Origin: Salinivibrio kushneri
GTDB lineage: Bacteria > Pseudomonadota > Gammaproteobacteria > Enterobacterales > Vibrionaceae
Length of the DNA: 64,000 bases
Assembly (NCBI RefSeq): GCF_005280275.1
Contig: NZ_CP040021.1
Coordinates: 1,823,001-1,887,000, forward strand
Reading direction: 5' to 3'
The notes beneath the pieces are model-generated. The model did no database searches. It saw only the letters and a list, made by a program, of their open reading frames with translations, and was not told the DNA's origin. The translations under genes were made by a program, and so were the position numbers. Below, piece by piece: positions 3,121 through 61,602 of this stretch (its first letter is position 1; every line of letters begins with the position of its first letter).

Positions 3121-3412
3121 CAGGACAAAATCCCAGAAGTTTGAAAACAGATGAAGGGGGACGGATTACCGAAGTCTATCGTACTGCAGACAAAGTTCCT
3201 AGGACCTAGGATCCTAGGTCCTAGGAACAGCTTTCCGCTCTTTCCCGTACTCCGTAAGCTAAGCGCTCCGTATTCCCATTCACGAATACCGATGACTGAA
3301 TACAGAGTACAGAAAAAGCACGAGCCCCAATACGAGCACCCGCGTGTTCTTTCCCGGCTCTTCCCATCTCCCCCAGCATTCCGTATTCTGTCGTCCTTAT
3401 TTACCAATTTTG
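3121..3412. repeat. Composite CTAG/hairpin intergenic repeat, unit R1
   Basis: Fills the 406-base gap between the divergent rfbB and galE. It contains a perfect 32-bp palindrome at 3196-3227 whose half is TTCCTAGGACCTAGGA. Next is an ~83-bp imperfect hairpin at 3237-3319 (outer arms GCTCTTTCCCGTACTCCGTA and the complement of TACAGAGTACAGAAAAAGC), then a GC-rich tail with TACGAGCACCCGCGTG. The same modules recur at 4.5, 10.0, 40.7, 43.4, 44.9, 49.0 and 61.5 kb. No protein is convincingly encoded here. Confidence 0.85.
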
Positions 3413-3434: not shown

Positions 3435-4448
3435 ATGAAGGTACTCGTCACCGGTGGCACGGGGTATATTGGCAGCCACACTTGCATTCAACTGATTGAA
3501 CAAGGCCATACGCCTATCGTTATCGATAACCTGTGCAATAGTAAAGAAATGGTGCTCGATCGCATTGAGCAAGTCACTGGCGCGCGACCGGCTTTTATGC
3601 AAGGTGATATTCGCGACAGTGCGTTCTTAAAACATGTGTTTACTGAATACAGCATTGATAGCGTGATCCACTTTGCCGGACTCAAAGCGGTCGGCGAGTC
3701 GGTTGAAAAGCCACTGAAATATTACGATAACAATGTCTCCGGGACCTTAAACTTGGTGCGTGAGATGCACGCGGCTAATGTCACATCACTGATTTTTAGC
3801 TCATCCGCCACGGTTTATGGCGATCCTACGTCGGTGCCAATTAAAGAAGACTTCCCCACCGCCGCCACTAACCCTTACGGACGCAGCAAGTTAATAGTGG
3901 AAGAGTGCTTACAGGACTTTCAACATGCCAATCCGGATTGGAGCATTACTCTGCTGCGTTACTTTAATCCGGTTGGTGCGCATGAGTCGGGATTACTAGG
4001 CGAAGATCCGCAAGGCACACCAAATAACTTGCTGCCTTTTGTGGCACAAGTGGCAGTGGGCCGACGCGAGAAGCTGGGCGTGTTTGGCAATGATTATTCT
4101 ACCCCCGACGGCACCGGCGTGCGTGATTATATTCACGTAGTGGATCTGGCCGATGGACATTTAGCCGCGCTAGATAAGATGGCCTCTCAACCTGGCACTC
4201 ATATCTTTAACCTCGGTACCGGCCAAGGCAACAGTGTATTAGAAATGGTGCATGCGTTTGAAGCCGCGGCTAAGCGCTCAATTCCCTACGAAATCAAACC
4301 TCGCCGCGCCGGCGACATTGCTGAGTGCTACGCTGATCCCACTTATGCCAAAACAATATTAGGCTGGACCGCCACTCGCGATCTGCAAACTATGGTCGAA
4401 GACACCTGGCGCTGGCAGTCGAATAACCCGGATGGGTATGGGGATTAG
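3435..4448 (+). CDS. galE: UDP-glucose 4-epimerase
   Basis: GalE interconverts UDP-glucose and UDP-galactose, and often UDP-GlcNAc and UDP-GalNAc, with tightly bound NAD in the cytoplasm. The protein begins MKVLVTGGTGYIGSH (NAD-binding glycine motif). It carries SSSATVYGDP with the catalytic Ser and NPYGRSK with the Tyr-x3-Lys pair. At 337 aa it matches E. coli GalE (338). It opens the plus-strand block leading into yjbEFGH and wecA, but a CTAG repeat of more than 200 bp separates it from yjbE, so co-transcription is uncertain. Its likely role here is supplying galactose-type sugars to the capsule. Confidence 0.96.
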   Translation: MKVLVTGGTGYIGSHTCIQLIEQGHTPIVIDNLCNSKEMVLDRIEQVTGARPAFMQGDIRDSAFLKHVFTEYSIDSVIHFAGLKAVGESVEKPLKYYDNNVSGTLNLVREMHAANVTSLIFSSSATVYGDPTSVPIKEDFPTAATNPYGRSKLIVEECLQDFQHANPDWSITLLRYFNPVGAHESGLLGEDPQGTPNNLLPFVAQVAVGRREKLGVFGNDYSTPDGTGVRDYIHVVDLADGHLAALDKMASQPGTHIFNLGTGQGNSVLEMVHAFEAAAKRSIPYEIKPRRAGDIAECYADPTYAKTILGWTATRDLQTMVEDTWRWQSNNPDGYGD

Positions 4449-4690
4449 AGACTAGAAAGATCCTAGGGTCCTAGGATACGGAATACGGAAAAGCGTATCG
4501 TGCCTAACTCTCTCGATAAAGTTCCTAGGACCTAGGATCCTAGGACCTGCTTTCTGCTCTTCCCCGTATTCTGTAAGCGCAGCGCTCCGTATTCAAACAC
4601 CCGAATACCGATGACTGAATACAGAGTACAGAAAGAGCAAGACCACCAATGCAAGCACATCGCTGCTCTTTCCCCTAGGACCTAGGACCT
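4449..4690. repeat. Composite CTAG/hairpin intergenic repeat, unit R2
   Basis: Starts right after the galE TAG stop. In order: GACTAGAAAG, a short CCTAGG array, GATACGGAATACGG, the conserved phrase AAAAGCGTATCGTGCC, a second array around 4522-4549 that contains the palindrome TCCTAGGATCCTAGGA, and the ~83-bp hairpin module (4556-4638) ending in GTACAGAAAGAGC. A third small CCTAGG pair follows at 4674-4690. The module order matches R1 and the 40.6-kb unit. Confidence 0.85.
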
Positions 4691-8891: not shown

Positions 8892-9986
8892 GTGATTAAC
8901 TCATTCGTCGACTTGGCTTTGCTTCTATTTTTCTCGACCAGCTCATTGTTTGTGCTCAGAAAACTTGCTAGGCGTATTGATCTTGTGGATAAACCGGATA
9001 TGCGTAAACACCATGCTGGCGCTGTTCCACTCGTGGGTGGGTTGGCTGTGTGTTTGTCGCTGGTCTACTTTATATTTAATAACCCTGACGTCATCCCCCA
9101 TAGTGGCTTATATGCCACCTGTATGTTGGTCCTTGTCACAATCGGGGTATTAGATGATAAATTTGATATCGACTTTAAACTGCGGATCGGCGTGCAAGCT
9201 GCTCTCGCAGTGGTCATGATGGTGATGGGGGATATCGAACTTAGCCGTTTAGGTAATATTTTTGCCACTGGACGTATTCAACTCGAGACCTTGGGTTATG
9301 GACTCACAGTGCTTGCGGTAATTGGCGCTATCAATGCATTTAACATGGTAGATGGTATTGATGGGCTACTAGGCGGACTCGCCACTGTGACTTTTGTTAG
9401 CTTGGGGTTACTGCTGTTCTTGAACGGTCATCAATCAATGGCCTATTTATGTCTTGTCCTCACCGTGATTATGGCGCCGTATCTGCTATTTAATCTGGGG
9501 GTATTAGGTCGTGAGCGAAAAGTTTTTATGGGCGATGCCGGCAGCATGCTGATTGGCTTTACCGTCATTTGGTTTTTACTGCTTGCCAGCCAACACCCAA
9601 CTAATGCCGCGATACGCCCTGTAACCGGACTATGGCTTATTGCCCTGCCCTTGATGGATATGACCGCGATTATGTTCCGGCGCGTTAAGCGCGGCGACTC
9701 GCCTTTTAAGCCGGACCGAGAGCATTTACACCACATTTTTCAACGCATGGGTTTATCTCCGCGCCAAACACTGGGCGCTATTTGCTTGCTCGCAACAGCA
9801 TTAGCCAGCATCGGCATGATTGGTGAGTTATTCAATATTCATGAAACCATCATGTTCATCGGTTTTTTAGTCTGTTTCGTCCTTTATTGCATGATGCTCC
9901 GACACATCTGGCGAGTAACCTCTTTTATCCGCGCAAAGTTGGGAAAAAATGAATTTGGTGAAAAGGTTGGAGAGGTTAGAAGCTAG
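8892..9986 (+). CDS. wecA: Undecaprenyl-phosphate N-acetylhexosamine-1-phosphate transferase (WecA family)
   Basis: An integral membrane enzyme of the MraY/WecA family that moves a HexNAc-1-phosphate, in E. coli GlcNAc-1-P, from UDP-sugar to undecaprenyl phosphate and so starts O-antigen, ECA or capsule units. Multiple membrane segments are visible, with family motifs VLDDKFDID (Asp pair), NAFNMVDGIDG, MGDAGSM and HLHHIFQRMG. 364 aa. The start is a GTG with AAGGAAGAG 6 bases upstream. The TAG stop lies inside the CTAG repeat that follows. It is probably the priming enzyme for the whole locus, as no WbaP-like alternative is present. Confidence 0.93.
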   Translation: MINSFVDLALLLFFSTSSLFVLRKLARRIDLVDKPDMRKHHAGAVPLVGGLAVCLSLVYFIFNNPDVIPHSGLYATCMLVLVTIGVLDDKFDIDFKLRIGVQAALAVVMMVMGDIELSRLGNIFATGRIQLETLGYGLTVLAVIGAINAFNMVDGIDGLLGGLATVTFVSLGLLLFLNGHQSMAYLCLVLTVIMAPYLLFNLGVLGRERKVFMGDAGSMLIGFTVIWFLLLASQHPTNAAIRPVTGLWLIALPLMDMTAIMFRRVKRGDSPFKPDREHLHHIFQRMGLSPRQTLGAICLLATALASIGMIGELFNIHETIMFIGFLVCFVLYCMMLRHIWRVTSFIRAKLGKNEFGEKVGEVRS

Positions 9987-10160
9987 AGGCTAGAGGCTAG
10001 AGGCTAGAAAGACCCTAGGGTCCTAGGTCCTAGGTCCTAGGTCCTAGGAAAAGATAACGGAATACTGAATACGGAAAAAGCGTATCGTGCCTGGCCTTGC
10101 TCTTCTCCGTATTCTGTAAGCGAAGCGCTCCGTATTCAAGATCCCGAATACCGATCACGG
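9978..10160. repeat. Composite CTAG repeat, unit R3, cut by ISAs1
   Basis: Begins within the wecA end: four tandem copies of a ~10-bp GCTAGAGGCT unit, then a CCTAGGT array (about 10012-10048), GATAACGGAATACTG, the phrase AAAAAGCGTATCGTGCC, and the left arm and centre of the hairpin module (from 10099). The module stops in CGAATACCGATCACGG where the insertion sequence begins. The missing right end appears to be the fragment at 11781-11825. Confidence 0.8.
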
Positions 10161-11429
10161 AAAACGCATGAACATCCGCGTCACGAAAGGCTTCCCAGCA
10201 CGGTCGCCAGGTACTCTTGGTCCATCGCGCACATCATTCGCTTGCGTTGAATCCCGGCTTTAAAACTCTTCTCTTGCTTTAATAAATTCAGAACCATTTG
10301 CCTTATTCGTGCAAAGACTTCCGCTCGGTCATCCACCCTAATTCGGCAGGTATCTTCTTTTAACCCAACATCCAGTTGCCAGTGCATTGATTCAATTAAC
10401 CAATGCGAGCGAGTGGCATCATGAAGCTCTTTCGCTGTCAGCGCTTTTGAGCTTATATAATAGCGCACGGAGATATCTGATTCTTCGGCGTGCTTTCCTT
10501 CTTGTCGAACACTCACCATGATGCCCATCGTTTTTAATTCTGGCCAATCATAAGCCAAATCACCTAATACACTTAAATCGGTATTAATCAGTGCACATCG
10601 TGTTTCCAAACGCCCATGCGATTTCTCTTGTGATGAATAGCTATCGCCATCAAAATGTTGAAGCATTGAGGGGCGGTAATAATTATCAAACGCTTCATCT
10701 AACCTGCCTTGATTTCCTTTAACAGCAAGCAAATAATCAGCATTTTTATCGATGATTTTCTGTGCAATTTTTCGCTGACAACCCATGGCATCAATGGTAA
10801 TCAAACAACCTGAAATATCTAGCAATTCTAGTAGTTTAGGGATGGCAGTGATCTCGTTCGTCTTACTGTCTACTTTTGACTGTCCGAGGCATACACCATT
10901 TGCGGTTGCGAACGCATTAACCATATGAATAGCAGCTTGGTCTGTTGCTCTGTTATACGATCCTTTCAGTGTTTTTCCATCAATGGCAACCACTTCGCCA
11001 TCCGTTAATTCATGACACGATTTCATCCATTCTATAAAGGCTTTTTGTAATGCCTTTGGACTGATGGTTCCCATCACTCTTGCGATCGTATCTGCCGACG
11101 GTGACGTTTTACCTGAAAAGCCAAAACGTAATAAGAAATCGCGCTGCTTACGGCCATAATCACTAATGCCTTTCCAGGTATCATGACCAGAAAGAACCGC
11201 ACAGATCGTTATCAAAATAATATCTGATAACGTATGTTCAACTTTTCCTTCTTGGCGAATATCTTTGATGGAAACGAAATGCATAAATGGACTTTTTTCT
11301 TCTGTCATTTTTAATCTCCTAAACGTTAGGAGACCATTAAATCGCACTGAAAATGATCAACAAATTGATCCTTTATTTTCACTAGTTTTAATTAATAAAG
11401 ATGGTACAACGCACGGTTTTCATCCCCAA
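10159..11429 (-). mobile_element. ISAs1-family insertion sequence, apparently intact
   Basis: Contains a full-length transposase gene read on the minus strand. The end next to the transposase stop reads CACGGAAAACGCATGAAC; the other end reads CGCACGGTTTTCATCC, weakly complementary around a GTTTTC core. The same transposase-stop end is conserved in two broken copies at 17.2 and 19.7 kb, which supports the left boundary. The right boundary is estimated. I could not identify a target-site duplication. Confidence 0.75.
10181..11308 (-). CDS. ISAs1-family transposase (H-repeat type)
   Basis: A 375-aa DDE transposase of the ISAs1/H-repeat family. N-terminal DIRQEGKVEHTLSDIILI is the family's helical domain. 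The catalytic core shows VVAIDGKTLKGSY, LITIDAMGCQ and DYLLAVKGNQ; the C-terminus has HWLIESMHWQLDV with the last acidic residues. Start chosen at the ATG with AGGAGAT upstream (MTEEKSPF), not the longer reading. No internal stop, so it may be active. Two decayed copies of the same gene lie at 17.2 and 19.7 kb in the same orientation. Confidence 0.92.
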   Translation of the reverse strand: MTEEKSPFMHFVSIKDIRQEGKVEHTLSDIILITICAVLSGHDTWKGISDYGRKQRDFLLRFGFSGKTSPSADTIARVMGTISPKALQKAFIEWMKSCHELTDGEVVAIDGKTLKGSYNRATDQAAIHMVNAFATANGVCLGQSKVDSKTNEITAIPKLLELLDISGCLITIDAMGCQRKIAQKIIDKNADYLLAVKGNQGRLDEAFDNYYRPSMLQHFDGDSYSSQEKSHGRLETRCALINTDLSVLGDLAYDWPELKTMGIMVSVRQEGKHAEESDISVRYYISSKALTAKELHDATRSHWLIESMHWQLDVGLKEDTCRIRVDDRAEVFARIRQMVLNLLKQEKSFKAGIQRKRMMCAMDQEYLATVLGSLS

Positions 11430-11456
11430 GTGACAATTTAGTCATTAAGTTGCTAG

Positions 11457-11753
11457 CCCAGGCGTGGCGCGGATCTTCATGCGTTTTCCCTGGGCCGCAT
11501 TAGCATCGACAACAATGTGACAGAGCGAGACATCCGCCCGTTCGCCACGGGTCGAAAGAACTGGATGTTCTCGACATCTGTCGGTGGAGCAAAAGCGAGT
11601 GCCAATCTGTATAGCTTGGTGATGACATGTCGTGCCAATGACATCAATCCCTACTATTACTTCCGACACCTGTTCGATGAATTACCCAAGCGCTCGCCAT
11701 CGGACGATATGTCAGATCTAATGCCATGGTGTGTGGATCTCAGTGATGAGTAG
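11457..11753 (+). pseudogene. IS66-family transposase, C-terminal remnant
   Basis: An open frame of 98 codons with no proper start encodes GRISIDNNVTERDIRPF, TGRKNWMF and SLVMTCRANDINPYYY, ending in DLMPWCVDL. This is the conserved C-terminus of IS66 TnpC transposases, including the end of the DDE core. The rest of the gene is missing on the left, where the ISAs1 element sits. The following TAACCGCTTAC at 11770-11780, read on the other strand as GTAAGCGGTTA, fits an IS66 terminal inverted repeat. An inactive remnant. Confidence 0.85.
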
Positions 11754-11780
11754 CCACTCACCGGTTTATTAACCGCTTAC

Positions 11781-11825
11781 AGAGCGCCGATGCGAGCACG
11801 GGGCTGCTCTTATCCGTATTCAAGC
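11781..11825. repeat. Right-hand fragment of the CTAG/hairpin composite repeat
   Basis: AGAGCGCCGATGCGAGCACG, then GGGCTGCTCTTATCCGTATTC, resembles the tail module of intact units (GCGCGCACGAGGCTGCTTG at 40.8 kb; CGTGCTCGCATCGGGG at 43.5 kb). With the truncated unit R3 on the other side it suggests both insertion sequences landed in one composite repeat. Confidence 0.6.
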
Positions 11826-11827
11826 TT

Positions 11828-12832
11828 TTATATTTGGTAGAAGTCTTTATACCACGCTACAAACTGCGCGACGCCTTCTTTCACACTCACTTTCGGCTGA
11901 TAAGCCGTGGCGGCGAACAAATCTTGGGTATCAGCATAAGTTTGATACACATCACCCGGCTGCATACCACGAAAGTTTTTCTTTGCTTCTATCCCCAACT
12001 CAGATTCAATGGCCTGGATGAAGTCCATTAAGTTAATCGGACTACCATGACCAATGTTATAAAGTGCATAAGGCGCTGAACTACTGTTTGGGTGGCCTTG
12101 CTCGACTGTCCATGTACTATCACGCTGAGGTATCACATCAGCAACACGCACTACGCCTTCGACGATGTCATCGATATAGGTGAAGTCACGCCACATATCA
12201 CCGTGATTATTAATGTCGATGGTATCGCCATCGAGAATCTTTTTAGTGAAGATAAACGGTGCCATATCAGGCCGTCCCCACGGGCCATAAACCGTAAAAA
12301 AACGCAAACCAGTGGTAGGAATATCGTAGAGATGCGAATAGCTGTGTGCCATCAGCTCGTTCGACTTTTTGGTGGCTGCGTAGAGCGAAACCGGATGATC
12401 CACTGAATCACAGCTACTAAACGGTACTTTGCTGTTTAGCCCGTACACTGAGCTCGATGAGGCATACACTAAGTGATCAACCTTAACGCTCCGACACCCC
12501 TCTAGAATATTCAAGTGCCCAACAAGATTTGAATCCGCGTAGGCATGCGGATTTTCCAACGAATAGCGCACTCCCGCTTGCGCCGCGAGATGGATAACGC
12601 GGTCAAACTTTTCTTGCTCAAACAGCTCTGCAACCGCGGTGCGATCGGCAATATCAAGCGACAAAAATCTAAAACTGGCTTGAGGGATACTATTCAACCT
12701 TGCCTGCTTAAGTGATACATCATAATAATCGTTGAGGTTATCTATCCCGACTACCTGATGCCCCTGCGTTAGCAGCTTTTGTGCTACCGCACTACCTATA
12801 AAGCCGGCCACGCCGGTGACAAGGTATTTCAT
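11828..12832 (-). CDS. NAD-dependent epimerase, probably UDP-glucuronate 4-epimerase
   Basis: An extended SDR sugar-nucleotide epimerase, 334 aa. It has TGVAGFIGS at the N-terminus, the family signature LNDYYDVSLKQARL (typical of UDP-glucuronate 4-epimerases), HLAAQAGVRYS, catalytic SSSSVYG, and Tyr-x3-Lys in YAATKKSNE. Expected reaction: UDP-glucuronate to UDP-galacturonate, using product of the Ugd encoded at 43.6 kb. It is the last gene of the long minus-strand capsule array. Gene names vary between species, so none is given. Confidence 0.85.
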   Translation of the reverse strand: MKYLVTGVAGFIGSAVAQKLLTQGHQVVGIDNLNDYYDVSLKQARLNSIPQASFRFLSLDIADRTAVAELFEQEKFDRVIHLAAQAGVRYSLENPHAYADSNLVGHLNILEGCRSVKVDHLVYASSSSVYGLNSKVPFSSCDSVDHPVSLYAATKKSNELMAHSYSHLYDIPTTGLRFFTVYGPWGRPDMAPFIFTKKILDGDTIDINNHGDMWRDFTYIDDIVEGVVRVADVIPQRDSTWTVEQGHPNSSSAPYALYNIGHGSPINLMDFIQAIESELGIEAKKNFRGMQPGDVYQTYADTQDLFAATAYQPKVSVKEGVAQFVAWYKDFYQI

Positions 12833-34389: not shown

Positions 34390-34422
34390 GAGGCTAAGGT
34401 CCTAGGTCCTAGGACTCTAGAC
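34390..34422. repeat. Short CTAG array overlapping the wzz stop
   Basis: GAGGCTAAGGTCCTAGGTCC then TAGGACTCTAGACT. The wzz TAG stop (34409-34411) and its last codons (Ser-Leu-Glu-Ser) are encoded inside the array. Confidence 0.8.
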
Positions 34423-35389: not shown

Positions 35390-35397
35390 TCGTTAAA

Positions 35398-35456
35398 AGG
35401 TCCTAGGATCCTAGGTCCTAGATCCTAGGAATAGCACCTAGGTCTAGGTTGTAGGA
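35398..35456. repeat. CTAG array between wzz and the four-helix-bundle gene
   Basis: Runs of TCCTAGGATCCTAGGTCCTA, then GATCCTAGGAATAGCACCTAGG. It lies 9 bases upstream of the wzz ATG, within what should be its leader, so it is probably transcribed. Confidence 0.8.
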
Positions 35457-35517
35457 TTATCTTCAAAATATTAAAAAATTTTTAAGAAAACGCGCTGCTT
35501 TTCTGCTGGGATGGCTA

Positions 35518-35916
35518 TCAATCGCTCACTGCTTGATAGTTATATCCACCCGCTTCCTCACGTACCATCCCTTTACGGCGTTTAATGAGCGCGGCTAGCA
35601 TAGCAGCAATTTCTTTCGCTTCTTGGACGAAGTCCATCCCTGTTTGCTTGTCTATAAACCCAGCTTCGATACCGATATATATTTGGGTGATAAGCTCACC
35701 AGCAGACCCTTTGGCAATATAAAAAAATCTTGCTGATTCCGCGGGCGTTTCACGTTCTTCACCTTCTGCAATATTAGAGGCAACGGATAATGCACTTCGC
35801 ATTATTTGGTCTTTGTAACCGTAATTTTTGCATGCGTCGAACGTTTTATATATCGATGAAGAAAGTCGACAGCTACGCTTCCAAACTTCAAGCCTTTCAA
35901 AATCAAGTTGGCGCAT
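35518..35916 (-). CDS. Four-helix-bundle protein (S23/IVS family)
   Basis: 132 aa. LDFERLEVWKRSCRLSSSIY, RSALSVASNIAEGEER and RFFYIAKGSAGELITQIYI are the signature of the family first described from 23S rRNA intervening sequences, a four-helix bundle that forms pentamers. The biochemical role is not known. Members occur in Vibrio polysaccharide loci between wza and wzz homologues, as here. It is flanked on both sides by CTAG arrays (35398-35456, 35948-35980), which suggests it may travel as a cassette. No catalytic motif. Confidence 0.85.
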   Translation of the reverse strand: MRQLDFERLEVWKRSCRLSSSIYKTFDACKNYGYKDQIMRSALSVASNIAEGEERETPAESARFFYIAKGSAGELITQIYIGIEAGFIDKQTGMDFVQEAKEIAAMLAALIKRRKGMVREEAGGYNYQAVSD

Positions 35917-35947
35917 CTAATCCTATTTCATTACCTATGCTTTATCA

Positions 35948-35980
35948 CCCTAGAACCTAGGACCTAGGCCCTAGGATCCT
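35948..35980. repeat. CTAG array between the SLBB gene and the four-helix-bundle gene
   Basis: CCCTAGAACCTAGGACCTAG then GCCCTAGGATCCTC. Five CTAG in about 30 bases; it starts about 10 bases after the export gene stop. Confidence 0.8.
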
Positions 35981-40262: not shown

Positions 40263-40273
40263 ACGCTACCGCC
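40263..40273 (-). promoter_or_regulatory. ops element in a JUMPStart-like leader
   Basis: On the minus strand the sequence reads GGCGGTAGCGT, an exact ops match, about 100 bases before wzi. It is preceded by CAGATGGTTACCGCGCCCAG and by an arm (GCCC) that can pair with the GGGC next to ops, as in JUMPStart leaders. ops pauses RNA polymerase and recruits RfaH, which prevents premature termination in long operons. The array downstream is about 28 kb. The stretch 40310-40584 further upstream contains no gene and probably the promoter, which I cannot locate precisely. Confidence 0.85.
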
Positions 40274-40584: not shown

Positions 40585-40836
40585 GGAGAGACTAGAAAAG
40601 GTCCTAGGTCCTAGGTCCTAGACGAGAGATTACGGAATACGGAAAAAGCGTATCGTGCCAGCTCTGGTAGATAGAGTTCTTAGGATCTAGGATCCTAGGT
40701 TCTAGGAATTACTTCCCGCTCTTCCCGTACTCTGTAAGCGAAGCGCTCCGTATTCCAATTCCCGAATACCGATTACGGAATACAGAGTACAGAAAGAGCA
40801 AGAGCCTCGGTGCGCGCACGAGGCTGCTTGTTCCCA
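40585..40836. repeat. Composite CTAG/hairpin repeat, best-preserved unit
   Basis: All modules in order: GAGACTAGAAAAG; CCTAGGT array (40601-40622); GATTACGGAATACGGAAAAA, then GCGTATCGTGCC; degenerate CTAG array (40676-40707); hairpin module 40718-40799 with outer arms GCTCTTCCCGTACTCTGTA and the complement of TACAGAGTACAGAAAGAGC; tail hairpin AGCCTCG-gtgcgcgca-CGAGGCT (40803-40825). It separates the rjg-like gene from the capsule promoter region. Confidence 0.9.
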
Positions 40837-42190: not shown

Positions 42191-42358
42191 GAGGGAAGAG
42201 GCTAAAGATTGAAAATAGGGAAGAGACGCTTCGCTTCTAGAAACTAGAAACTAGAAACGAGGGAGAGACTAGACGGTTCGCTTCTAGAAACTAGGAAAAG
42301 ATCAAAGCGGGCCCTAGGATGTTTTCTAGCCTCTAGTCTCTAGTCTCTAGTCTCTAGC
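42191..42358. repeat. CTAG repeat of the TCTAGAGACTAG type
   Basis: GAGACGCTTCGCTTCTAGAA, then AACTAGAAACTAGAAACGAG, a second CGGTTCGCTTCTAGAAACTAG, GGGCCCTAGGATG, and four tandem copies of a 7-bp TCTAGTC unit ending at the hydrolase stop. This type has CTAG units but no hairpin module. The TAG stop of the hydrolase gene (42354-42356) is part of the array. Confidence 0.8.
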
Positions 42359-43298
42359 CTCTTATCATCTTATCCATCATCTGTTCTATCAACGGGCTTG
42401 GGTGGCCGTTATCGTCGGTGAGAAAATAGGTATGACCCCAGTGGGGATCGAACTGGTCATTAAAGGCGTCGCAGTCGGTTACCGTCACTTTGTTGTCGGG
42501 AAGCGCGTCAAGGTTTTCAGGGCCTGTCATGCCGAGGCGGCGAGTGACGGTGCGGTGGCGTACGTTCACCACCTTTGAGGCAGCCATGGCTAAATCATCG
42601 GCGGCATAGTAAATATGCACTTGTTTGGCGGCATCGAGGACGGCTCTCCCTGGCTGGTGCGGCTCTAGCGCTTGGTTATCAACATCGGCGGCCATCATAA
42701 AGATATGCCGAAACCATTGTGGCATGGTGTCGAGTCCAGCATGTTGGTGCCAATGGTGAAAGGTGCTGATGAGCGTGCGATTCCCCATGGAGTGCGCGAG
42801 TAGGTTCATGCGCCGTTTGCACGGATCAGTTTGTTGCTCGGGGGCGCGACGCCAGTCATCAAACATCGCCAGTAAACGACTAAACGCCAAGCCTGACGCG
42901 GTGGCAGCAAGTTGATCATCCCAGTAATCATCAATAACACCGAGCTGGCCATCTTCATCACAAGGCCAGATAATCGGTACCACCAGTATGGCGTTGGGTG
43001 ACAGGCGATCACATTGATGTTGTAAGGTCTGTGCCATCGGGAAAATATGGCTTTCCATTTGGTTGTTATAACCATGAAGCAAAAAGAGTATCTGGGTATG
43101 TACGGGCAAGGCTTTCAGTTTGGCCATAAACGACGCAGCGGTGATCTCTTGGTATTCACCCTGCCCGGCGCGTTGGCAAAAATACACCCACTTTGAGATA
43201 TCGGTGTTTTGGTTATCAAAACTGAGCCAACGGCCGGCCTCACTGTGCGAGCCTTGTTCGGGAATACGGCTGGTAATAAATAACATGGCATCATCCAT
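42354..43298 (-). CDS. Alpha/beta hydrolase (DUF900-type)
   Basis: 314 aa. ILFLLHGYNNQMES gives the oxyanion His-Gly motif, LLAHSMGNRTLIS the nucleophile elbow G/A-H-S-M-G with catalytic Ser, and the C-terminal WGHTYFL may contain the catalytic His. This resembles the DUF900/COG4782 hydrolases of unknown substrate. No signal peptide, so cytoplasmic. It lies between the rjg-like gene and ugd, with CTAG repeats on both sides, so its link to polysaccharide synthesis is only positional. A start four codons later has the better ribosome-binding site. Confidence 0.8.
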   Translation of the reverse strand: MDDAMLFITSRIPEQGSHSEAGRWLSFDNQNTDISKWVYFCQRAGQGEYQEITAASFMAKLKALPVHTQILFLLHGYNNQMESHIFPMAQTLQHQCDRLSPNAILVVPIIWPCDEDGQLGVIDDYWDDQLAATASGLAFSRLLAMFDDWRRAPEQQTDPCKRRMNLLAHSMGNRTLISTFHHWHQHAGLDTMPQWFRHIFMMAADVDNQALEPHQPGRAVLDAAKQVHIYYAADDLAMAASKVVNVRHRTVTRRLGMTGPENLDALPDNKVTVTDCDAFNDQFDPHWGHTYFLTDDNGHPSPLIEQMMDKMIRG

Positions 43299-43391: not shown

Positions 43392-43617
43392 AAGATCCTA
43401 GGGTCCTAGGTCCTAGGTCCTAGGGAAAGATTATGGAATACGGAATACGGAAAGAGACTAGACGCTTCGCTTCTAGAGACTAGAAAAAGCAGCCTCGTGC
43501 TCGCATCGGGGCCTTTGCTCTTTCCGTACTCTGTATTCCGTCATCGGTATTCGGGAATTGGAATACAGAGCGCTTCGCTTACGGAGTACCGAAAAGAGCA
43601 GACCGAGCCCGTATTGT
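43392..43617. repeat. Composite CTAG/hairpin repeat, hairpin inverted
   Basis: CCTAGG array (43397-43423), GATTATGGAATACGGAATAC, GAGACTAGACGCTTCGCTTC, tail module CAGCCTCGTGCTCGCATCGG, then the hairpin module 43517-43599 in the opposite orientation to that at 40.7 kb (TATTCGGGAATTGGAATAC and AGCGCTTCGCTTACGG now follow the GTACTCTGTATTCCG arm). Confidence 0.88.
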
Positions 43618-44825: not shown

Positions 44826-45114
44826 GTATCACGTGGGGGCTCTAGGGGAAAGATCCTAGGGCCTTTAGGGGAAAGGTCCTAGATCCTAGATCCTAGGTCC
44901 TAGGTCCTAGGGAATAGATTATGGATGACGGGAAAGGGACGAGACGCTTCGCTTCTAGAAACTAAAGGCTAGAGACTAGATAAAGCAGACCGTGCTCGCA
45001 TTGGAGTTCTTGCTCTTTCTGTATTCCGTATTCAGTACTCCGCATTCGGGAAATTGAATACGGAGCGCTTCGCTTACAGATAACGGAAAAGAGCAAGAAA
45101 AGCTCTAGATCCTA
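44826..45114. repeat. Composite CTAG/hairpin repeat, hairpin inverted
   Basis: Fills the 318-base gap between ugd and the lipoprotein gene. CTAG arrays at 44847-44911 (GATCCTAGGTCCTAGGTCCT), GATTATGGATGACGG, GAGACGCTTCGCTTCTAG, tail module GACCGTGCTCGCATTGG, hairpin module 45012-45094 in the inverted orientation, and GCTCTAGATCCTAAGG. The lipoprotein gene's TAG stop is inside the last CTAG-type unit. Confidence 0.86.
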
Positions 45115-46840: not shown

Positions 46841-46928
46841 TGGCGGTGAGAGAGGGATTCGAACCCTCGATACGTTGCCGTATACACGCTTTCCAGGCGT
46901 GCTCCTTCAGCCACTCGGACACCTCACC
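46841..46928 (-). tRNA. tRNA-Ser (anticodon GGA)
   Basis: 88 bases including an encoded CCA. Acceptor GGTGAGG pairs with CTCTCACC, anticodon stem-loop CACGC-CTGGAAA-GCGTG with GGA (complement at 46892-46894), long variable arm TATACGGCAACGTA typical of class II serine tRNAs, and T-arm GAGGGTTCGAATCCCTC. Reads UCC/UCU codons. Followed on its own strand by a strong terminator. Serine tRNA genes are frequent integration sites, but no att-like duplicate is visible nearby. The 284 bases to the next gene show nothing else. Confidence 0.97.
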
Positions 46929-47793: not shown

Positions 47794-47935
47794 GTAGGGT
47801 CCCAGGTCCTAGACGATAGTATACAGGGCCTTGAATACAGAGCGCTTCGCTTACGGAGTACGGAAAAAGCAGAAATCAGTGCCTAGGACCTAGGCACTTA
47901 GTTCTCCGTATTCCGTCAAATGATTCGATTGGCGA
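47794..47935. repeat. CTAG repeat with near-perfect 21-bp palindrome
   Basis: GGGTCCCAGGTCCTAGACG, then GAATACAGAGCGCTTCGCTT with ACGGAGTACGG (half of the hairpin module), then AGTGCCTAGGACCTAGGCAC, whose ends (AGTGCC/GGCACT) are complementary so that the CCTAGG pair forms a hairpin, then CTCCGTATTCCGTC. Confidence 0.8.
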
Positions 47936-47971
47936 CGATGGCGCAAGCCCTTACCCTGCAAGGAGGTGAAA

Positions 47972-48385
47972 ATGACGGATACACACCTGGAGCGCTGGCA
48001 ACTTCGACTTCAAAACCTGATTAAAGCACAACGTCGGCTTGAAAACGCTTGCGGGCAAGAAAGCTATAACGAACTTGAGCTGGCAGGCCTCGTGCAAACC
48101 TTTGAGTTTACTTTTGAGCTCACGTGGAAAACCTTAAAAGACTTATTAAGCTACGAAGGGTTTGATGTTGCATCGCCGCGCAGTGTCATTCGCACAGCGT
48201 TAGAAGCCAACCATCTGTCGTCGGATCAGTGTGAAACCTTGCTTGACGCGCTAGTAAAACGAAACTTGCTTTCGCACACCTACGACGAGCAAAATGCCCT
48301 CGAAGCGCAAAGACTGATCGTTAAACATTATGCCCCTGTTATTGCCGAGATCATGCGGTATTTGGAGAATAAAAGTGGACAATAA
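47972..48385 (+). CDS. hepT: HepT-like HEPN toxin (HI0074 family)
   Basis: 137 aa all-helical protein of the nucleotidyltransferase substrate-binding family. It contains RNLLSHTY, an exact RX4HXY motif, the active site of HEPN RNases of the HepT type. EFTFELTWKTLKDLL and PRSVIRTALEANHL are typical of HI0074. A textbook AAGGAGGTGAAA precedes the ATG; a GTG two codons earlier is less likely. It overlaps the MntA-like gene by 11 bases. Known MntA/HepT pairs form a type VII toxin-antitoxin in which MntA AMPylates the Tyr of this motif. Function here inferred. Confidence 0.87.
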   Translation: MTDTHLERWQLRLQNLIKAQRRLENACGQESYNELELAGLVQTFEFTFELTWKTLKDLLSYEGFDVASPRSVIRTALEANHLSSDQCETLLDALVKRNLLSHTYDEQNALEAQRLIVKHYAPVIAEIMRYLENKSGQ

Positions 48386-48695
48386 TGCCACGTTCTTGAT
48401 GGAGATAGGGTTAAAACCCCATCAATTTCAACTGCTCCAAGATATGGTATTCAGCCACCCTGGCGTCCAACACGCCTGGATCTTTGGCTCTCGCGCAACC
48501 GGCACATTTAGGGATAATTCTGATATCGACATCATGCTTGAGGGCAACACATTAACATTCAATGATGTAGCAATAATACAAGATAAACTCGAGCAATCGA
48601 CGCTTCCCTACACCGTTGATATCGTACTCAAACATCAAACTCAATCGTCTGAGCTCATCACACGTATTCGCGAAGAAGCCAAGCAAGTAAAGTAA
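48375..48695 (+). CDS. mntA: MntA-like nucleotidyltransferase antitoxin
   Basis: 106 aa minimal nucleotidyltransferase. IFGSRATGTFRDNSDIDIML holds the GS-X10-DXD motif of MNT proteins (Gly-Ser, then Asp-x-Asp), with a third acidic residue expected near VDIVL. Start is set at GTG 48375, overlapping hepT; an ATG at 48399 (MEIGLKPHQ) is an alternative. It pairs with the HEPN protein upstream as an MntA-HepT unit. 48696-48895 beyond it is a gene-free stretch, and repeats follow. Confidence 0.87.
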   Translation: MDNNATFLMEIGLKPHQFQLLQDMVFSHPGVQHAWIFGSRATGTFRDNSDIDIMLEGNTLTFNDVAIIQDKLEQSTLPYTVDIVLKHQTQSSELITRIREEAKQVK

Positions 48696-48895
48696 TCCAA
48701 AGGAACTCCTAGCGACGATGACACGGGCCTCTACACGATGTTGGAAAGGTGTAGAGTGCCAGCGGGCGCCTATCAGGGTCAGTGTTAATTTTAACCTCCC
48801 ATGTCGGAGGCGACGTGCAACGGGCGCGCTTTGGCTTGGGTATTCATGATTAACACCGCACCGGCGCTTGTCCGACCTACGCGATGTTCAGGATT

Positions 48896-49170
48896 TTTGA
48901 ATACAGAGCGCTTCGCTTACGGAGTACGGGAGACGAGACGCTTCGCTTCTAGAGGCTAGATAAAGCAGATCATGCTCGCATTGAGGCTATTGCTTTTTCT
49001 GTACTCTGTATTCCGTAATCAGTATTCGGGATCTTGAATACAGAGTGCTTCGCTTACGGAGTACGGGAAGAGCAGAAATCAGTGCCTAGGTCCTAGGCTC
49101 CTAGGACCTAGACACTTAGGTCTCCGTATTCCGTCATCTTTTCCTAGGATCTAGGAGCCTAGGCCCCAGG
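48896..49170. repeat. Composite CTAG/hairpin repeat downstream of mntA and nadA
   Basis: Between the convergent mntA and nadA genes (482-base gap). AATACAGAGCGCTTCGCTTA, CGGGAGACGAGACGCTTCGC, TCTAGAGGCTAG, tail module CATGCTCGCATTGAGG, a full inverted hairpin module (48992-49073), and CTAG arrays at 49086-49113 and 49142-49163. The first 200 bases of the gap (48696-48895) contain no gene and no repeat module that I recognise. Confidence 0.85.
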
Positions 49171-50279: not shown

Positions 50280-50396
50280 TGGAGCTAGAGTCCTAGAGCG
50301 AGGTCTTAGAGCCTAGTTCCTGGTTCCTAGGTCCTAGGAATAGATTACGGGATACGGAGACCTAAGTGCCTAGGTCCTAGGATCCTAGGACCTTAT
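50280..50396. repeat. CTAG arrays between nadA and cpoB
   Basis: GAGCTAGAGTCCTAGAGCG, GTTCCTAGGTCCTAGGAA (a near-perfect palindrome), GATTACGGGATACGGAG, then AAGTGCCTAGGTCCTAGGAT and CCTAGGACC. The hairpin module is absent. The cpoB stop follows 5 bases later. Confidence 0.82.
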
Positions 50397-50399
50397 TGC

Positions 50400-51131
50400 C
50401 TACATCGCGTTTTTGGCTTGTTTGGCGCTGGTTGAGTCTGGGTAGGTATCAATCACTTGCTGGAAGTATTGATTGGCTTGGTCGCCATTACCTTGTTTTT
50501 GTGCTATCAAGCCCAGTTTCAGCAAGGCATCCGGGCGTTTGTTGGAGTCTTTAAACTCACTCACTGCCGTGAATTCTTGGCTGGCTTGTTCAAACTTACG
50601 TTTGGAGAAATAAAGCTGACCGAGCCAATAGTGGGCATTGGCGGTGTAGACCGACTCTGGGTATTGTGAAAGAAACGCTTTAAATGCTTGGGTAGCCCCT
50701 TGGTAATCTTTCTCTTTTAAGATCAGATTAACGGCGGCTTCATAGGCTGCATTTTCGGTTTGATCCGCAGTGTAGTTCGCGGCTGACTTGTCCTCAGCCT
50801 TTTTTTCAGGCTCTGCAGGTGCTGATTGCTTCGCCGTTCTTAGGGTATCGATTTCTCGATAGAGGTCGCGCTGACGCTCAACCATTTGTTGAATGTCATA
50901 GCTGTTGCGCTCAACGTTGCCGCGTAAATTGCTCAGCTCTTGCGCCATTTGGTCAAGCTGACGCTGCATATCCAGCTGCATTTGGTTACGAGCTTGGAGC
51001 ATGCGCTCTAAACGATCGACGGCGGTGCCACCCGCCCCTACTTCTGTCACCGGAGCAGGTGTGGCAGCCACGGGGGCTGCCACACTCACCAGTAACGCCA
51101 GCGCGAGGGTTCGCACAGAGTTACTGTTCAT
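50400..51131 (-). CDS. cpoB: Cell division coordinator CpoB (YbgF)
   Basis: 243 aa periplasmic protein with signal peptide (TLALALLVSVAAPVAATPA), a trimerising coiled coil (RLERMLQARNQMQLDMQRQL, then ELSNLRGNVERN) and C-terminal TPR repeats (AYEAAVNLILKEKDYQGA; AHYWLGQLYFSKRKFEQA). It links Tol-Pal outer-membrane constriction with PBP1B peptidoglycan synthesis. Last gene of the tol-pal cluster. I use the second Met: AGGA lies 7 bases before it, too close to the first. Confidence 0.94.
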   Translation of the reverse strand: MNSNSVRTLALALLVSVAAPVAATPAPVTEVGAGGTAVDRLERMLQARNQMQLDMQRQLDQMAQELSNLRGNVERNSYDIQQMVERQRDLYREIDTLRTAKQSAPAEPEKKAEDKSAANYTADQTENAAYEAAVNLILKEKDYQGATQAFKAFLSQYPESVYTANAHYWLGQLYFSKRKFEQASQEFTAVSEFKDSNKRPDALLKLGLIAQKQGNGDQANQYFQQVIDTYPDSTSAKQAKNAM

Positions 51132-51165
51132 TGTCATATCCTTTATCCATTACCAAAAGGCTGGA

Positions 51166-51684
51166 TTAGTATACCAATACCGCACGACGGTTTTTGGCGT
51201 AAGCTTCTTCGCTTTGGCCAAGTACCAACGGTTTTTCTTCGCCGTAGCTCACGATAGAGATCTGGCTCGCCGGTACGCCCAGCGCTTGTAGGTATTTAGA
51301 AACCGCTTCGGCACGACGCTCGCCCAGGGCAATGTTGTACTCAGGCGTACCGCGCTCATCTGCGTGACCTTCTACTACCACTTCCATGGCTGGGTTCGCA
51401 CGCAGGTAAGTCGCGTGGGCATCCAACATGTCTTCGTATTGTGGCAGTACTGATGAGTCGTCAAAGTTGAAGTAAACGGTTTGCGACTGACGCAGTTCTT
51501 GGTTACGGATTTGTTGCTCTGTCATTGAGCCTTGGCCGTCAACAGGAGAAACAACGGTGGTGCCGTTTTGGTTAGTTGATTGGCCAGAACCACTGCCGGT
51601 TGAGCTATCGTGTGAGCTACACGCAGCCAGTGTAAACATCGGCAGTGCCACCGCCAGACCTTTCAGTACTTTATTGATTTGCAT
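51166..51684 (-). CDS. pal: Peptidoglycan-associated lipoprotein Pal
   Basis: 172 aa outer-membrane lipoprotein: signal peptide with lipobox LAAC, Ser/Gly linker, then the OmpA-like domain from [18 protein letters not shown] through [22 protein letters not shown] (peptidoglycan-binding Asp and Arg) to the end RRAVLVY. It anchors the outer membrane to the cell wall and works with TolB during division. 49 bases after tolB and 34 before cpoB. Confidence 0.97.
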
Positions 51685-61380: not shown

Positions 61381-61602
61381 TCCAGTCGGATTGAGGGGGA
61401 TACGGAATACGGAATACGGAATACGAAATACGGAATACGGAATACGGAATACGGATTACGGATTACGGATTACGGAAAAGCGTAACGTGCCTGTCCCTGT
61501 AGAAACAGTTCCTAGGGCCTAGGATCCTAGGACCTAGGCGCTACTTTCTGCTCTTCCCGTATTCTGTAAGCGAAGCGCTCTGTATTCGAAATCCCTAGGC
61601 GC
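61381..61602. repeat. Tandem GGAATAC/GGATTAC array plus CTAG composite repeat
   Basis: From 61397 to about 61480, ten or so copies of a 7-bp unit: GGAATAC repeated with one GAAATAC variant, then GGATTAC three times. Next come AAAAGCGTAACGTGCC, a CTAG palindrome array at 61510-61539 (CCTAGGATCCTAGG core) and half of the hairpin module with CTGTAAGCGAAGCGCTC. It breaks the ruvA-ruvC junction. The tandem part explains the origin of the GGAATACGG phrase of the other units. Confidence 0.88.

Follow-up and report, generated by a model that had tools for sequence, protein, structure and literature searches.

CTAG-rich heptamer repeats of Salinivibrio kushneri as probable arms and gene-less derivatives of an intervening-sequence-type element

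Intervening sequences (IVS) are found in 23S rRNA genes, where some of them carry an S23p/IVP gene, as in Coxiella burnetii, while versions lacking an open reading frame (ORF) also exist; they have been called selfish, their stems are cut by RNase III, and, although known for more than 25 years, they are described as unclear in both origin and function (PMC4990558). IVP genes are also on record within cas operons (PMC3936711) and, in bacteria of the candidate phyla radiation (CPR), within insertions of rRNA genes (PMC11270868). As to repeats, the region of wza, a hypothetical gene and wzb in the group 1 capsule operon of Vibrio vulnificus has direct repeats with CTAG or else the octamer ACAGGACC (PMC7247339), and direct repeats of the heptamer TAACTGA, present in Beggiatoaceae, Cyanobacteria and Bacteroidetes, have been read as sites of a translational regulator (PMC4679880). 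The present analysis concerns a stretch of 64,000 nucleotides of the Salinivibrio kushneri genome (NZ_CP040021.1, positions 1,823,001 to 1,887,000; hereafter, the window), which contains a family of dispersed CTAG-rich repeats and, inside one copy, a PF05635 gene (IVP, for intervening-sequence protein of 23S rRNA). This gene, absent from a preliminary description of the repeats, is the key to the family: the repeats are probably the arms and the ORF-less derivatives of an IVS-type element, which lives also between the genes of operons.

The complete copy and the repeat unit

The complete copy (35,398-35,980) consists of an array, the IVP gene and a second array. The encoded protein matches Pfam PF05635 (E 7.6e-30) and NCBIfam TIGR02436 (E 1.2e-30), is related by sequence to PDB 2gsc (XCC0516; E 1.9e-14) and finds no match in phage records; it is the only PF05635 match of the whole genome. 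The gene does not lie within a 23S rRNA gene, since its neighbours are wza on one side and a wzz-like gene on the other, and Rfam detects no rRNA in the window. The two arms share a 25-bp inverted repeat with 23 matches; as RNA, the element from arm to arm (35395-35980, 586 nt, transcribed strand) is predicted to form a long stem, at -192.5 kcal/mol (z-score -6.65).

The CTAG-rich repeats are real and well beyond chance, as the preliminary description had held: CCTAGG occurs 55 times in the window versus 8.3 expected, a count reached by none of 100 shuffles, and the modules GAGACTAGA (9 versus 0.17 expected) and AAAAAGCGTATCGTGCC (allowing up to 3 mismatches; 4 versus 0.25) are enriched as well. 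TRF and the spacing of CTAG identify the unit as a heptamer, formed by CTAG and three variable bases: the steps between neighbouring CTAGs at most 60 bp apart are mostly of 7 bp (43), then of 8 bp (14). The GGAATAC and ATACGGA modules are heptamers too, with up to 11 copies at 61.4 kb; the tandem units of the window by TRF are CTAGNNN, GGAATAC and variants, all 7-bp and intergenic. The STRR heptanucleotide repeats of cyanobacteria are likewise 7-bp tandem arrays.

The hairpin of the family, described earlier as ~83 bp long and corrected here to ~85 bp, is present, whole or partial, in 10 places of the window and in none of 12 control 20-kb stretches of the same genome, which also lack clusters of at least three CTAG. 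Relative to its trinucleotides, CTAG is not unusually rare in these controls, contrary to what had been assumed: its counts (16-45 per 20 kb, 322 in total) are near the expectation of ~342. Fifteen sites had been listed for the family: 14 have a CTAG array or at least a doublet, while that at 11.8 kb has neither, and only a stretch resembling the GC-rich tail, as judged by eye. No Rfam family covers the repeats in the window, and the control pattern GATCNNN... is found nowhere in the genome. The ORF-less composite at 40585-40836 is also predicted to fold stably as RNA (z-score -4.91).

In the 3.44-Mb genome the CCTAGGNCCTAGG sites (27) and the CTAG heptad triplets (20) lie without exception within positions 1,783,124-1,884,538 of the large replicon. 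This stretch of ~101 kb contains mainly surface-polysaccharide genes and a flank of core genes: among 10 larger ORFs sampled upstream of the window, mostly for glycosyltransferases and for capsule synthesis or export, 8 have such domains or sugar-modifying ones, while the window part holds capsule export genes followed by nadA, cpoB, tolB, ruvABC and yebC.

IVP loci in other genomes

Heptamer arms in inverted orientation recur at IVP loci well outside the genus. The best 80 of 584 IVP matches in named genomes (the named set) span about a dozen phyla according to tree labels; exact period-7 runs of at least 8 lie within 250 bp of the gene in 41/80 loci, versus 3/80 at a distance of 2.25-2.5 kb, whereas every other period is found in 0-8 loci, except for the harmonic 14 (40). 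Measured against mismatched pairs, the two flanks exceed the 95th percentile as inverted complements in 59/78 loci and as direct copies in 7/78, far flanks reaching 3/63; these values come from local alignment, used instead of the duplex energies of 150-bp flanks, which were too noisy (median of -72.1 for matched flanks, close to the mean of -67.9 for far pairs). In a second set, sampled evenly across Pseudomonadota (IVP in 62/398 genomes, 57 loci examined), the patterns were similar, with period 7 near the gene in 37/57 loci and far from it in 4/57, and flanks inverted in 37/55 and direct in 5/55. For the 17 loci of the order to which the window belongs, shared arms inflate the 95th percentile (threshold 50) and 4/17 pass; at the threshold of the named set, 23, inverted flanks are found in 15/17 and direct ones as well in 5/17.

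As the near/far control consisted mostly of coding DNA, a control restricted to intergenic gaps was run afterwards, and it shrinks the contrast within IVP loci: period 7 is present in 29/94 gaps adjacent to IVP genes and in 22/144 gaps of the same loci more than 700 bp away. Because the gaps of five IVP-negative genomes give 1/174, the latter are read as local ORF-less arrays; therefore, heptamer arrays lacking the gene are concentrated around IVP loci. The window is a case in point, its genome having 9/42 such gaps inside the ~101-kb region and 1/101 outside. Moreover, 7 of 28 distant arrays find their best match, among the 80 loci, in the IVP flank of their own locus (0.35 expected).

The same architecture is found in rRNA. 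Rfam places three IVPs inside 23S rRNA genes, all with degenerate-heptamer arms: L289 and L290, from a single genome, and L301, from a plasmid of Azospirillum. The genome of the pair has two more IVPs, L265 and L286, outside rRNA, and no rRNA was found by Rfam around the IVP of locus L097. Among seven further plasmid IVPs, mostly cyanobacterial, 6 have a period-7 run of at least 8, 3 are clearly inverted and one, enclosed by cas6 and cas4 (L295), has direct heptamer arrays.

Arrays of the type (CTAGNNN)3CTAG occur in 25 of 61 genomes, the one of the window included, so that the modules do exist beyond the window; 23 of the 25 belong to the family of the window, Vibrionaceae. PF05635 is detected in 14/25 array-positive and 2/36 array-negative genomes (Fisher 1.4e-5) and, within Vibrionaceae, in 13/23 and 1/14 (p 0.004), relatedness being ignored in both tests.

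In the order of the window, 14 of 24 genomes have PF05635, with 17 genes in total, of which 14 lie at most 30 kb from rjg on the same contig; as to the others, G003 is split over contigs, G018 has its gene ~500 kb from rjg and G060 was left out of the rjg search. Nearly all the 17 adjoin heptamer-like repeats, and the unit varies (CTAGAGA, CCTAGGN, CAGGACC, CCTGAAA, CCTGAAC, GAGTAGC, TTCTGTA/TTCCGTA, GGGACTA). In three species of the genus (G000, the genome of the window, G003 and G005) the wzz-like gene is 91-95% identical, while the IVPs between wza and this gene are only 43-52% identical and each has a different arm unit. The G003 protein groups with that of G030, from another genus (76% identity, TACGGAA-type arms in both), and the G005 protein with that of G016 (66%, CTAGAGA-type arms in both), in a tree with few columns and unsettled bootstrap. 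Arms become more alike as IVP identity grows: the mark is exceeded by 34% of pairs at 60-70% identity and by 2-5% below 55% (Mantel 0/2000). The hairpin of the window flanks the G003 IVP on either side, once whole and once half. At the rjg site dN/dS of IVP is 0.03-0.04 in both pairs compared (of six, those of equal length), indicating purifying selection.

Gene-less copies come and go as well. The ruvA/ruvC interval is 279 bp long in the window and 70 bp in the sister species G001, with a clean break, i.e. an empty site; the rjg/DUF900 interval measures 178 bp versus 33-62 bp, free of arrays, in four sister species, and contains other composites in G004, G005 and G006. The nadA/cpoB interval is not a clean empty-site case, since CTAG repeats are kept in G001, G002 and G004. 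These data, together with the occurrence of the same composite at other loci of sister species, agree with the earlier view of a dispersed, composite and non-autonomous-looking family. At the level of sequence, architecture, recurrence, turnover between sister species and the presence of ORF-less copies near IVP loci are established.

Three observations regard single loci or junctions. The cysD/cysN junction repeatedly holds IVP genes (L093, L112, L128, L131, L145, L148, L157, L168 and L232; gene names assigned by eye), in Pseudomonas, Halopseudomonas, Modicisalibacter, an Opitutales metagenome-assembled genome and others. In Pseudomaricurvus sp. HS19 (L156) a (GGACTAG)n array of ~580 bp lies near an IVP gene with other arms. 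A genome of another family (G055, locus L044), 92% complete, has 21 CTAG heptad arrays and no PF05635 match.

Gene-less copies in the window

The features of the window are collected in Table 1; the composite at 43396..43600 has a near-identical counterpart in the sister species G005.

Table 1. Position of the complete copy, of its parts and of the ORF-less copies in the window.
Feature	Position	Strand	Method
IVP gene, PF05635/TIGR02436 four-helix-bundle protein, 132 aa, in the wza / wzz-like gene interval of the capsule-export operon	35518..35916 (stop codon counted in)	-	Pfam, NCBIfam
Arm downstream of the IVP gene (operon direction), CTAG heptamer array	35398..35447	.	TRF, CTAG spacing
Inverted-repeat half in downstream arm	35405-35429		
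Arm upstream of the IVP gene, CTAG heptamer array	35949..35980	.	TRF
Inverted-repeat half in upstream arm	35956-35980		
ORF-less composite reported as the finding: GAGACTAGA, CTAG arms, GGAATACGG plus AAAAAGCGTATCGTGCC, hairpin, GC-rich tail	40588..40836	.	
Same composite, left CTAG arm	40599-40621		
Same composite, GGAATACGG plus AAAAAGCGTATCGTGCC	40643-40659		
Same composite, right CTAG arm	40681-40707		
Same composite, ~85-bp hairpin	40717-40801		
ORF-less copy: CTAG arm 3198-3226, hairpin 3236-3321	3197..3321	.	TRF, CTAG spacing, hairpin search
ORF-less copy: CTAG arms 4452-4475 and 4524-4548, conserved module 4488-4504, hairpin 4555-4640, CTAG doublet 4674-4690	4448..4690	.	
ORF-less copy: AGAGGCT, CCTAGGT and GGAATAC arrays, conserved module 10075-10091; hairpin incomplete at 10165, adjoining an ISAs1-type transposase gene	9971..10165	.	
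Isolated CTAG array; overlaps the wzz-like gene at its stop-codon end	34397..34420	.	TRF, CTAG spacing
CTAG arrays, units AAACTAG and TCTAGTC, rjg / DUF900 gene interval	42237..42362	.	
ORF-less composite, other orientation: CTAG array, GGAATAC array, GAGACTAGA units, hairpin 43515-43600	43396..43600	.	
ORF-less composite: CTAG arrays, hairpin 45010-45095	44836..45095	.	
Half hairpin and CTAG doublet, upstream of the HEPN/MNT gene pair	47833..47894	.	
One half and one full hairpin (48990-49074) with CTAG arrays, on the downstream side of the HEPN/MNT pair	48896..49163	.	
CTAG arrays, nadA / cpoB interval	50285..50393	.	
ORF-less composite: (ATACGGA)11, variant conserved module 61475-61491, CTAG arm 61511-61538, half hairpin 61550-61595	61400..61599	.	

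After the ISAs1-family gene, a transposase-like fragment and a tail-like stretch can be recognized by eye at 11.4-11.8 kb, and the layout of 10165-11830 looks as if insertions had split one copy. A HEPN (HI0074)/MNT nucleotidyltransferase gene pair, resembling a toxin-antitoxin system, lies at 47966-48695 with a composite repeat on either side; it is present in G005 and gives no blastn match in the fetched stretches of G001, G002, G004 and G007; the genes on its two sides, UPF0149 and nadA, almost adjoin in G001 and G002. Part of the spacer before nadA (48740-48890) resembles, by eye, the inserts of G005 at rjg/DUF900 and nadA/cpoB, and may belong to another family of dispersed repeats. An exact GGCGGTAGCGT, which we take to be the ops/JUMPstart motif, lies at 40263-40273 (-), upstream of the wzi-wza operon. 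Rfam also identifies a CpoB/ybgF RNA thermometer (RF02782) at 51102-51265 (-) and a tRNA at 46844-46928.

Interpretation and comparison with known systems

The analyses demonstrate stem-forming arms, an IVP gene under purifying selection, replacement of the unit and ORF-less copies. The complete element would consist of a PF05635 gene and two arms of 7-bp units, usually inverted copies of each other, so that its transcript could form a long stem with the gene in the loop; in 23S rRNA genes it would correspond to the known IVS, while elsewhere it would lie between genes, often of one operon. RNase III may cut the stem, freeing the IVP segment from the mRNA, and such insertions would be tolerable because the cut uncouples the element from its neighbours. 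The IVP could in turn act on its own arms and promote their spread, mostly at short range, whereas slippage would lengthen and shorten them. The CTAG core is presumably the arm variant favoured in Vibrionaceae, perhaps because CTAG pairs with itself in either orientation. A role in mRNA structure, one of the possibilities raised in the preliminary description, is thus part of the best reading; that description finds partial support as a whole, since the family is dispersed, composite and non-autonomous-looking, while its likeness to REP/BIME is unsupported and a CTAG-specific site is unlikely.

Several data weigh against this interpretation. In the window itself the arms combine steps of 7 and of 8 bp and do not pass the strict run-of-8 test; the named set, being the best 80 of 584 matches, was obtained with a seed made mostly of Vibrionaceae sequences; neither period 7 nor inverted flanks are found in 9/80 named and 9/57 Pseudomonadota loci, and arms are direct instead of inverted at L099, L095, L088 and L295. 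Sister-species alignments, inspected by eye, display no clear target-site duplication and define none of fixed length. Arm similarity follows IVP identity only above ~60%, PF05635 has no match in 11 of the 25 genomes with arrays, and the genome of the window contains a single IVP alongside about a dozen ORF-less copies. Finally, a reverse transcriptase as partner is unsupported, PF00078 being not found in 8 of the 16 IVP-bearing genomes searched, that of the window included.

A rather unlikely alternative is that the element is a domesticated operon part, in which stem and IVP set a differential stability of the two mRNA halves and are selected at certain junctions. Site labels do cluster on the IVP tree, with 9 changes versus 24.4 when shuffled (e.g. 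wza/wzb or wzz, cysD/cysN), dN/dS is low at the rjg site (0.03-0.04), folds are strong (z -6.65 and -4.91) and both neighbours are co-oriented in 48/75 loci versus 85/179 control gene triples. However, the excess of co-orientation is modest and the ORF caller made errors; moreover, distant homologues replace the IVP between sister species while the neighbours stay conserved, ORF-less copies are scattered among unrelated genes, and the IVPs resident in rRNA serve no operon.

It is unlikely, too, that the arrays are minisatellites born by slippage and serving as short homologies, through which RecA would swap the IVP and other cargo, such as capsule genes and the HEPN/MNT pair, with no action of the IVP on the repeats. 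The CTAG-type repeats flanking wzb in V. vulnificus are thought to recombine and delete this gene (PMC7247339), repeat copy numbers vary among sister species, the repeat-bounded HEPN/MNT pair is missing in G001, G002, G004 and G007, and arms are sometimes not inverted; yet such a process accounts neither for a period of 7 instead of some other length, nor for its link to PF05635 across phyla, nor for the prevalence of inverted flanks (59/78 versus direct 7/78).

The arrays are dense, palindromic and limited to ~101 kb, as could be expected if a chromosome-organising or modification protein bound or methylated them; this is very improbable, since homologous arms in the same place elsewhere are heptamers without CTAG (CAGGACC, CCTGAAA, TTCTGTA/TTCCGTA), the arrays keep to the polysaccharide genes and their flank instead of being chromosome-wide, and single arrays are missing in sister species. 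The same arms lacking CTAG led us to reject CTAG itself as the signal. A REP/BIME family mobilised by a RAYT (Y1) transposase can be practically dismissed: the repeats are dispersed, palindromic and intergenic, but 7-bp tandem arrays are unlike REP, and PF01797 has no match in the genome of the window, which refutes this proposal in the form tested, and exceeds the cut-off in 1/8 genomes of the genus.

An IVS-type element with heptamer arms thus remains the preferred interpretation. Its extension is more tentative, and we consider it somewhat less probable than its opposite: a pan-bacterial, stem-bounded class, able to reside in any transcript, in which the PF05635 protein would recognise its own 7-bp arms, maintain them and seed ORF-less arrays nearby; a single system would then include 23S IVS, the capsule repeats of V. 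vulnificus and some of the orphan heptamer repeats of bacteria. If the arms belong to the IVP genes, two puzzles, namely the origin and function of IVS and several bacterial heptamer repeat families without explanation, would merge into one testable system, whose components are a small protein, the repeat that belongs to it and a stem in the RNA; it would also account for part of the gene turnover and of the burden of repeats around surface-polysaccharide loci. Novel aspects are the presence of IVS-type elements outside rRNA, their heptamer arms and the ORF-less dispersal; in our searches of open-licence papers we found none that ties heptamer repeats to the PF05635 family or joins the known pieces.

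As regards the known systems, empty sites in relatives, a feature of miniature inverted-repeat transposable elements (MITEs) and of non-autonomous DNA transposons, are found for the window repeats at ruvA/ruvC and rjg/DUF900. The TAACTGA repeats are patchy across phyla and absent in some close relatives (PMC4679880); the window arrays resemble them in being 7-bp, intergenic and tandem, and differ in their units, CTAGNNN, GGAATAC and variants. Tandem TAACTGA was met in 1 of 137 IVP loci, L159 of Vibrio salinus, where it forms the arm, and the terms "four helix", "23S rRNA" and "intervening" do not occur in the text of PMC4679880. As in the present case, cas-operon and CPR IVPs are PF05635 genes placed between operon genes or in rRNA, with no mention of heptamer arms in the available parts (PMC3936711, PMC11270868). 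The 23S rRNA IVS share with the window copy a PF05635-type ORF within a stem of terminal inverted repeats, as well as the existence of ORF-less versions (PMC4990558); the make-up of the arms in heptamers is not mentioned in the portion of that paper considered, while the two rRNA-resident IVPs found here, one in duplicate, share it, and unlike them the window copy lies in a protein-coding operon. In V. vulnificus the repeats are treated, in the part of the source available, only as substrates of wzb deletion, with no link to IVP (PMC7247339). As in that species, the CTAG arrays of the window (35,398-35,447 and 35,949-35,980) flank a gene just downstream of wza, and the enclosed gene is an IVP; in Grimontia hollisae, (CAGGACC)n lies beside an IVP at the junction matching the wza-wzb region of V. 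vulnificus.
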